A DNA stretch of 46,940 nt from positions 1 through 46,940 of the forward strand of contig SCRA01000011.1 in assembly GCA_004297985.1 (NCBI GenBank), given 5' to 3'. The notes below the pieces were generated by a model that saw only the letters and a list, made by a program, of their open reading frames with translations, was not told where the DNA came from and ran no database searches. Made by a program: the position numbers and the translations under genes. Shown here piece by piece: positions 2,534 through 4,792 of this stretch. This DNA is from a bacterium. GTDB taxonomy: Bacteria > Vulcanimicrobiota > Vulcanimicrobiia > Vulcanimicrobiales > SCRA01. Every line of letters begins with the position of its first letter. Within the stretch, counting starts at the first letter, position 1.

Positions 2534-2562
2534 TTGCGTGGCTCCGGCACCTGTGCTACCAT
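2534..2562 (+). promoter_or_regulatory. Predicted sigma-70-type promoter of the rimP-nusA-infB operon
   Basis: TTGCGT (2534-2539) and TACCAT (2557-2562) are separated by exactly 17 bp, placing a start near 2569, just before the leader hairpin and about 105 bp before rimP. The match is by eye; the position in the pyk-rimP spacer is right for the operon. Confidence 0.5.
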
Positions 2563-2590: not shown

Positions 2591-2620
2591 GAGCGTGGGT
2601 CTGCCCACGCTTCTGTGTTG
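2591..2620 (+). promoter_or_regulatory. Terminator-like hairpin in the rimP leader
   Basis: AGCGTGGG (2592-2599) and CCCACGCT (2604-2611) form a perfect 8-bp stem with a TCTG loop, extended by a G-T pair. TTCTGTGTTG follows. It sits between the predicted promoter and rimP. Similar GC-stem, U-rich hairpins are known ahead of rimP in other bacteria (the rimP leader idea), where attenuation of the nusA operon by NusA has been proposed. Its role as an attenuator here is inference. Confidence 0.55.
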
Positions 2621-2674
2621 TCAGCGGGTGCTCGCGTGCTCGAGCGGGGCCGAGGATGGTGAAGGAGACAGGCG

Positions 2675-3175
2675 ATCACATCACAGGAGGCGCTGGCCGT
2701 CGCGTTCGCGCTGGCCGCGGAACACCTCATCGGTGAGGAGGGGCTCAGCGGCCTCGAGATCGTCGACACGCGCGCGCGGCGCAAGGGGCGGCAGGCCGAG
2801 CTCACGCTGATCATCGATCACCCGGACGGCGTGAGCGTCGCACTCTGCGAGCGCGTGAGCGCGCGCGTCAACCACGCGCTGTCGGGCTTCGCGGAGCCCT
2901 ACACGTTGGAAGTCGAGTCGCCGGGGCTCGATCGCCCGTTGGTCAAGCTGGCCGATTTCGCGCGCTTCGCCGGTCAGCGGGTACGAGTCGCGACGGGGGT
3001 TGCCGTCAAGGGAAGCAAGACCCATCGCGGGGTTCTGCTCGGAGTGAGGGAAGAGAACGTGATCGTGGGCATGCGGGACGGCGAGCTGCCGATTCCGCAC
3101 CGTTTGATCGCGTCGGCCAACATCGAGTACGACATCCGCGCCGATCTGAAACGGGCAAAGGAAGTGAAGACGTAA
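2675..3175 (+). CDS. rimP: Ribosome maturation factor RimP, with a non-canonical start codon
   Basis: RimP assists assembly of the 30S subunit. The typical segments are present: an N-terminal domain with GLEIVDTRARRKG and LTLIIDHPDGV, then the signature YTLEVESPGLDRPL and the C-terminal SH3-like domain. The reading frame is open from a TGA at 2660-2662, yet no ATG, GTG or TTG occurs in it until GTG 2831, which would remove the conserved N-terminal third. The best fit is ATC at 2675, with AAGGAG (2662-2667) seven bases upstream, giving 166 residues. CTG 2693 is the alternative, but its AGGAGG lies too close. A single-base sequencing error linking ATG 2656 to this frame is also possible. It ends two bases before nusA. 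Confidence 0.85.
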   Translation: MTSQEALAVAFALAAEHLIGEEGLSGLEIVDTRARRKGRQAELTLIIDHPDGVSVALCERVSARVNHALSGFAEPYTLEVESPGLDRPLVKLADFARFAGQRVRVATGVAVKGSKTHRGVLLGVREENVIVGMRDGELPIPHRLIASANIEYDIRADLKRAKEVKT

Positions 3176-3177
3176 GT

Positions 3178-4521
3178 ATGCCGAGGAAAACTGCGAAGGC
3201 CGCGCAAGCCGAGAGTGCGGGCGAGCGCGATGCGCGCTTGCAAGCGGAGCTCATCGCTGCGCTCAAGGAGATCGAGAAGGAACGCGGGATCTCCTTCGAG
3301 ATGCTGATCGAGGCGCTCGAGGCGGCATTGATGTCGGCGTACAAGCGTAACTTCGGCGCCGAGGGTAATGCCATCGTCACCGTTGACAGAGAGACCGGCA
3401 AGTATCAGGTCTTTCGCCGCCGCACGGTGGTGGAACAGTACTCCGAGGAGCCCGAGGAGCAGCAGAACGAGATCCTCAAGCCGGAGGCGGGCGACCGCTA
3501 TGAGCCCGGCGACTACTTCGACGTCGAGGTCACTCCGAAGGATTTCGGCCGCATCGCCGCTCAGACCGCAAAGCAAGTGATCGTGCAGCGCATCCGTGAG
3601 GCGGAGCGGGACATGGTCTATAACGAGTACGTCACCAAACTCAACGACATCGTCCTGGGAACCGTCCAGCGCTACGAGCAGCGCAACATGTTCGTCGATC
3701 TCGGGAAGGCTGAAGCGCTGTTGCCGATTTCGGAGCAGGTGCCGCGCGAGAACTACCGCATTAACGACCGCATCCGCGCCTACGTGCTGGATGTCCGCAA
3801 GACGAACAAAGGGCCGCAGATCGTCCTCTCGCGTGCCGCCGAAGGCTTGGTCCAGCGTCTCATGGAGTTCGAAGTACCGGAGATCGAGGACGGCATCGTC
3901 GAGATCATGGCGATCTCGCGCGAGGCAGGCAGCCGCACGAAGGTGGCAGTCCACTCCAATCGAGCGGAAGTCGACCCGCTGGGCGCATGCCTTGGGCCGA
4001 AGTCGATCCGCATTGCCAACGTCTCCGACGAGCTGCGCGGCGAAAAGATCGATGTGATTCGCTGGTCGCCCGATCCGGCGACGTTCATTCAAAACGCGCT
4101 CTCGCCGGCCAAGGTGATCAACGTCGAGCTCTACGAGGACGACGGCACGGCGCTGGTGATCGTTCCCGACTATCAGCTCTCGCTGGCGATCGGCCGCGAA
4201 GGGCAGAACGTGCGCTTGGCGGCACGGCTTACGGGGTGGCGCTTGGAGATCGCCGCCGAGGCTGAGGTCGACGAGATGCGCGCCCGCTACTTCCAGGAGC
4301 GCGAGGAACGCCTGGCCGCCGAAGGCTTCGCCTACGGCGAAGGGATCGCGCCGGAGGGCGAGGGCGAGGTCGCGGCGGCCGAAAGCGGCGAAGAGGTCAT
4401 TGCCGCCGAGCCCCAGTCGGAGCTGGACTTGGAGCTGATTCGTAAGCTCCAGGAATTCAAGCGTGAAACGTTTGATCCGCTGCGGAGATCCGAGGAGACT
4501 GAAGAGACTGAGTCGCTCTGA
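3178..4521 (+). CDS. nusA: Transcription termination/antitermination factor NusA
   Basis: Binds RNA polymerase and nascent RNA to control pausing, termination and rRNA antitermination. The domains are in order: the polymerase-binding N-domain (about 20-145, with EMLIEALEAALMSAYKR), an S1 domain (about 155-220, GTVQRYEQRNMFVDLG), KH1 (about 245-305) and KH2 (about 310-365, with LAIGREGQNVRLAARLTGW). An acidic tail follows. No C-terminal acidic repeats of the E. coli type are seen, so 447 residues is a normal short form. In KH1 the GxxG RNA-binding loop reads G273-P-K-S276, losing the second glycine, while KH2 is canonical. ATG 3178 lies two bases after the rimP stop, and the ribosome site is inside rimP. 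Confidence 0.97.
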   Translation: MPRKTAKAAQAESAGERDARLQAELIAALKEIEKERGISFEMLIEALEAALMSAYKRNFGAEGNAIVTVDRETGKYQVFRRRTVVEQYSEEPEEQQNEILKPEAGDRYEPGDYFDVEVTPKDFGRIAAQTAKQVIVQRIREAERDMVYNEYVTKLNDIVLGTVQRYEQRNMFVDLGKAEALLPISEQVPRENYRINDRIRAYVLDVRKTNKGPQIVLSRAAEGLVQRLMEFEVPEIEDGIVEIMAISREAGSRTKVAVHSNRAEVDPLGACLGPKSIRIANVSDELRGEKIDVIRWSPDPATFIQNALSPAKVINVELYEDDGTALVIVPDYQLSLAIGREGQNVRLAARLTGWRLEIAAEAEVDEMRARYFQEREERLAAEGFAYGEGIAPEGEGEVAAAESGEEVIAAEPQSELDLELIRKLQEFKRETFDPLRRSEETEETESL

Positions 4522-4792
4522 CGCTGCTTGCTGGACTCCGGAGCGAACCTGTGTTGGCTGCCGGCACAGGCTCCCCCAAGCGGCGCTCGTACGCTTCGTG
4601 CGTGACGGCGCCGAGTGGGCTATCGATGTGCGCCGCCGCGCGCCTGGGCGTGGCGTCTACCTCTGCTCCGCAGTATGCGGAGTACGGGTGGCGAAGAACA
4701 AGAGGTATCCAGGACTGTCGGCTGCTGCCGAGAGGGAAGCAGATGAACTAAGAGGACGCGACGCGGCCGTGGCCGCGGAGGATGTACGCTAA
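4463..4792 (+). CDS. ylxR: YlxR-family RNA-binding protein
   Basis: A small (109-residue) protein of the YlxR/DUF448 family, almost always found between nusA and infB. The hallmark PERTCVGCRHR is present near residues 26-36, with LVRFVRD, RAPGRGVYLC and a following Cys. The family is thought to bind RNA or to influence transcription; in some bacteria it links to RNase P. The start chosen is GTG 4463, inside the 3' end of nusA, supported by AGGAA at 4451-4455. A CTG at 4508 would give a length closer to the family norm of about 90. The gene overlaps nusA by 59 bases and infB by 11. Confidence 0.9.
   Translation: MKRLIRCGDPRRLKRLSRSDAACWTPERTCVGCRHRLPQAALVRFVRDGAEWAIDVRRRAPGRGVYLCSAVCGVRVAKNKRYPGLSAAAEREADELRGRDAAVAAEDVR

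Follow-up and report, generated by a model that had tools for sequence, protein, structure and literature searches.

The rimP locus and its reading frame

The stretch of DNA analysed here (hereafter the window, 46,940 nucleotides from a bacterium of the order Vulcanimicrobiales) carries on its forward strand a rimP gene that heads an operon continuing with nusA, ylxR (PF04296), infB and rbfA, the last two being named from their translations. The product belongs to the RimP family on the basis of a RimP_N (PF02576) match with an E-value of 1.3e-11, above the cut-off. Read from the candidate start codon considered below, an ATC (AUC in the messenger) at positions 2675..2677, the coding sequence extends over 2675..3175 and specifies 166 amino acids. 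The ATG of nusA (3178..4521, forward strand) is found 2 nt after the rimP stop codon, an arrangement (TAAGT/TAAGC-ATG) shared by all three species in which the locus was compared, and the Shine–Dalgarno (SD) sequence of nusA itself is badly spaced, with an aligned spacing of 11–12. This geometry makes it likely that the translation of nusA is coupled to that of rimP.

The peculiarity of the gene resides in its 5′ end. A first-pass annotation of this DNA had described the rimP frame as open from a TGA at 2660..2662 and devoid of ATG, GTG or TTG near the conserved N-terminus, and this was borne out: the codons following the TGA are AGG AGA CAG GCG ATC ACA TCA CAG GAG GCG CTG, and the first standard start codon is a GTG at 2831. 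This GTG is not preceded by an SD sequence, and initiation there would indeed delete conserved sequence, since 52 of the 166 residues and about half of RimP_N, whose match begins at position 2747, would be lost. Gene finders miss starts of this kind, and would in the present case cut these 52 residues off RimP. An upstream in-frame start is, in turn, excluded by the TGA itself, which lies directly 5′ of the gene on the forward strand. The coordinates previously given for an SD sequence AAGGAG (2662..2667, forward strand) and for the ATC proved correct, with the motif ending 7 nt before the codon and an aligned spacing of 5. Among all the ATC triplets of the window, counting both strands, 11 of 1703 (0.65%) are accompanied by an SD sequence of at least this strength at an aligned spacing of 4–7.

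Conservation of the start region within the genus

The genus to which the window belongs is represented by four genomes in our collection, and the rimP locus is present in three of them, namely the window, G001 and G002; it is missing from G003, whose assembly is 82% complete. All the genomes with an ATC at the rimP start are apparently metagenome assemblies. The RimP proteins of G001 and G002 are 86% and 80–81% identical to that of the window, respectively, and their upstream regions align with it without gaps from about −100 nt through the whole N-terminal region. The start region reads TGA AGG AGG CAG GCG ATC ACG TCG in G001 and TGA GGG AGG CGG ACG ATC GCG TTG in G002. Thus, the in-frame TGA (expanded to TAG TGA in G001), the SD sequence, its aligned spacing of 5 and the ATC codon are common to the three species. 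The energy of pairing with the anti-SD, estimated by a simple stacking sum, amounts to −10.7 kcal/mol in the window, −13.96 in G001 and −12.55 in G002.

The recurrence of the same ATC at the same SD spacing in both sister species indicates that their association goes beyond chance. The first-pass annotation had also asked for the rimP starts of relatives to be aligned, and within the genus no ordinary start codon occupies the position of the ATC. No standard start precedes the conserved N-terminus in the window or in G001, and G002 contains only a TTG, two codons 3′ of the ATC, at a poor SD spacing (11); the same position is TCA in the window and TCG in G001. Considering that TGA, SD, spacing and ATC are conserved in the three species, and that each competing start is lost in at least one of them, the rimP gene of this genus very probably starts at the AUC at 2675.

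Start codons of rimP across the order

The class holds two orders, that of the window, with two families (one of them comprising 38 genera), and a sister order with a single family. Such a structure fits Eremiobacterota/Vulcanimicrobiota, with Baltobacterales as the probable order (PMC9758169), of which Vulcanimicrobium alpinum is a cultured member. When a start codon was assigned by rule to the 89 rimP loci of the order, ATG was selected in 32, GTG in 33 and TTG in 16, and 8 had no standard codon; as the rule is a heuristic, only the assignments for the window, G001 and G002 are firm. L014 and L015, which belong to the 8, reflect failures of the rule caused by long N-terminal extensions and were left uncounted. 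The remaining six correspond to the window, G001, G102, G067, G078 and G081. In G102 the region reads AAGGGGTCGAGA ATC ACG, and the congeneric G101 displays the same ATC ACG GGT, followed by a distant TTG, so that rimP may start at ATC or at ACG in these two genomes. G067 and G078 present a CTG at the homologous place, and in G081 the start is possibly an ATT. Within the subclade that includes G101 and G102, the homologous start position is occupied by GTG (G030 and G061), CTG (G032, G067 and G078) or ACG (G101 and G102). The CTG is thus found in three genera, at loci L045 (G067), L089 (G078) and L060 (G032); the first two are without a standard codon, and in L060 a TTG follows two codons downstream.

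Taken together, these assignments suggest that weak rimP starts are often used in the order, usually GTG or TTG and rarely CTG or ATC. They also indicate that an AUC is dispensable for the control of rimP in general, since ATG, GTG or TTG serves as the start of most rimP genes in the rest of the order. Outside the order, a rimP without a standard start (GGAGGATCGACG ATC GCG, after a hairpin and a run of T) was noticed at L122:2893, in the alphaproteobacterial metagenome-assembled genome JAEUKZ010000123.1. It was not retained as an independent AUC-started rimP, being a single case whose 22 family relatives, none of them close (at most 63% identity), have ATG, GTG or TTG.

Start codons of infC and of the neighbors of rimP

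The analogy with infC drawn in the first-pass annotation gained strength when the infC genes of the same organisms were read. In the three genomes of the genus (G000, G001 and G002) the gene presents the sequence TTCAAAGGAGTATCGCTC ATC GCT AGA CCC, and no standard start was found in them between the SD sequence and the conserved N-terminus of IF3. In the window's genus, rimP and infC would therefore appear to use one and the same non-canonical codon, ATC. None of the 42 infC genes read across the class begins with a standard codon: ATA is used by 32, ATC by 3 and ATT by 7 (loci L093–L095, L194–L225 and L234–L240). At the homologous codon, every one of the 32 genomes read from the second family of the order has ATA, and every one of the 7 read from the sister order has ATT. 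It is noteworthy in itself that a whole family should start infC invariably at ATA.

The genes in the vicinity of rimP, with the exception of ylxR, begin in the ordinary way. For the SDR gene, pyk, nusA, infB, rbfA and ribF, an ATG or GTG start is kept in G001 and/or G002, wherever the contigs reach, and 29 of 30 loci have an ATG at the start of nusA; the organism is, thus, not starting its genes at random codons.

As a separate observation, ylxR lacks an ATG, GTG or TTG close to its conserved start in a genus belonging to the sister family; there, an ATA overlaps the nusA stop codon (as ATAG or ATAA) in eight loci (L250, L253, L256, L258, L260, L261, L262 and L268, at about position 1480 on the match strand). 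In the window, ylxR occupies 4508–4792, and the candidate start conserved in the genus is a CTG at 4508, inside the end of nusA. The cases of ylxR and infC, seen together, suggest that non-canonical starts are a recurrent feature of the translation genes in this order.

Alternative explanations for the absence of a standard start

Several other readings of the 5′ end of rimP have to be weighed against initiation at the AUC. The most trivial would be an error of sequencing or assembly, in which a missing or extra base joins the ATG at 2656 (or the GTG at 2659) to the rimP frame. The window is a single assembled contig and this ATG lies at a plausible distance, and the first-pass annotation had accordingly proposed looking for a corrected base. 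Nevertheless, two separately assembled species share the frame with no indel among the three sequences, and ATG 2656 is replaced by ATA in G001 and by ACG in G002. This gapless conservation rules out an indel, the lack of conservation discards ATG 2656 as the start, and an error is left as an extremely improbable explanation. A programmed frameshift from GTG 2659 into the rimP frame could invoke the conservation of this GTG in all three species, where it overlaps the conserved TGA (GTGA). However, the GTGA is accounted for by the in-frame TGA, no conserved SD sequence precedes the GTG, and neither a slippery sequence nor a nearby zero-frame stop exists at the site of the shift, which makes the event very improbable. 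Readthrough of the stop codon from an upstream in-frame reading frame was equally rejected, on account of the in-frame TAG TGA of G001 and of the upstream 45 nt, which do not display a protein-like pattern of substitution. It is also unlikely that the start is another non-standard codon nearby (CTG 2693, or an ACG on either side of the ATC) or the internal GTG 2831. Such codons find a precedent in the related subclade described above, where three genera have CTG at the homologous start and one possibly has ACG, but in the genus under study CTG 2693 lies 1 nt (aligned) from its SD sequence and becomes CTA in G001, no ACG is common to the three species, and GTG 2831, with no SD, cuts into the conserved domain.

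A different kind of objection accepts the AUC and questions its purpose. According to this proposal, the codon is simply a weak start that fixes a low and constant level of RimP, as cellular IF3 would vary too little to exert control. The abundance of weak rimP starts speaks in its favor, given the 33 GTG and 16 TTG among the 89 loci of the order and the TTG of Escherichia coli, as does the fact that weak starts of the GTG or TTG type need no feedback from IF3. Against it, an AUC start should be weaker than GTG or TTG and falls within the class rejected by IF3, and its use for infC as well in these genomes points to an input shared by the two genes. We consider this constant-level proposal possible, although doubtful.

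Comparison with known systems and a proposed mechanism

The textbook example of a gene autoregulated by IF3 is infC. To our knowledge, conserved starts beyond ATG, GTG and TTG have rarely been documented for any other gene. The gene starts at ATT in E. coli, at ATC in Streptomyces, and is autoregulated (PMC5472188). The rimP gene of the window resembles it in having a probable start codon of the AUU/AUC/AUA class, a strong SD sequence and a function in the translation machinery. In contrast with infC, rimP does not encode IF3, so that any control would be cross-regulation and not autoregulation. Beyond infC, a conserved non-canonical start is also known from sigR of Streptomyces, which begins with GTC and is repressed by IF3, its output being altered by IF3 dosage and by fidelity mutants (PMC5472188); gene, codon and clade are different, and for sigR the effect of IF3 has been measured. 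The rimP gene of E. coli also heads nusA-infB and has a weak start, TTG (NC_000913), yet this is a standard weak codon, less rejected by IF3 than AUC. In that bacterium, two transcription terminators are located before rimP (PMC6511841). As for the basis of the discrimination, IF3 prefers the stronger pairs at the third codon base, tolerates G/U wobble and excludes weaker pairs (PMC10158994).

These precedents can be integrated into a model in which AUC 2675, placed at an optimal distance from a strong SD sequence, would initiate rimP. The initiator fMet-tRNA would read the AUC with a mismatch at the third position, and RimP would consequently begin with Met. IF3 would disfavor the complex between initiator tRNA and AUC, and the strong SD would compensate for this in part, so that the output of RimP would be low and would drop as IF3 rises, in parallel with that of the AUC-started infC. 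Translational coupling would then carry the effect on to NusA, as can be expected from a nusA gene that begins 2 nt past the rimP stop and has no well-placed SD of its own. Initiation at the AUC in the cell, its discrimination by IF3 and the coupling of nusA are the parts of this model that we infer. The explanation as a whole, that is, an AUC start at optimal SD distance, sensitive to IF3 and with a probable coupling to nusA, appears probable to us; as regards the IF3-responsive control of rimP taken separately, our analysis tips the balance slightly in its favor. If IF3 does restrain rimP as it restrains infC, the supply of an initiation factor would feed into the assembly of the small subunit and, via coupling, into NusA.

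A broader and more speculative notion is that a small IF3 regulon is written in the start codons of the order, comprising infC (AUA or AUC), rimP (AUC in the genus, with AUC, CUG or AUU elsewhere in a few cases) and ylxR (AUA over the nusA stop, in one genus), through which the level of IF3 might adjust ribosome assembly jointly with the rimP-nusA-ylxR-infB operon. We regard it as no better than tentative.

Within this framework, the putative AUC start of rimP would be the new element, non-canonical and IF3-sensitive starts being already known for infC and sigR. A limited literature search, which left out most subscription papers and arXiv, yielded no report of a rimP started at AUC or at another non-AUG codon; genes preferring non-AUG starts have been surveyed by Gvozdjak and Samanta (arXiv 2020, cited in PMC9845219), and that survey may list rimP.

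The leader of the rimP operon

Upstream of the gene, a promoter-like sequence TTGCGT-N17-TACCAT is found at 2534..2562 (forward strand); it is a consensus match only, and its elements are kept in both sister species as TTGCGY and TACCAT. Between this promoter and the SD sequence lies a hairpin, AGCGTGGG-TCTG-CCCACGCT (2592..2611, forward strand), followed by a U-rich stretch (2611–2621). No credible match to an Rfam leader family emerged, either in the window or in eight related loci, and the hairpin itself matches no family. The hairpin does not appear in the minimum free energy structure computed for the 160-nt leader, and this leader is not more stable than its shuffled versions (z = −0.07). 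The hairpin motif (AGCGTGGG...CCCRCGCT plus the U-rich tail) is present, with a nearly invariant sequence, upstream of rimP in 81 of the 89 loci of the order, and may represent a second layer of control, acting earlier.
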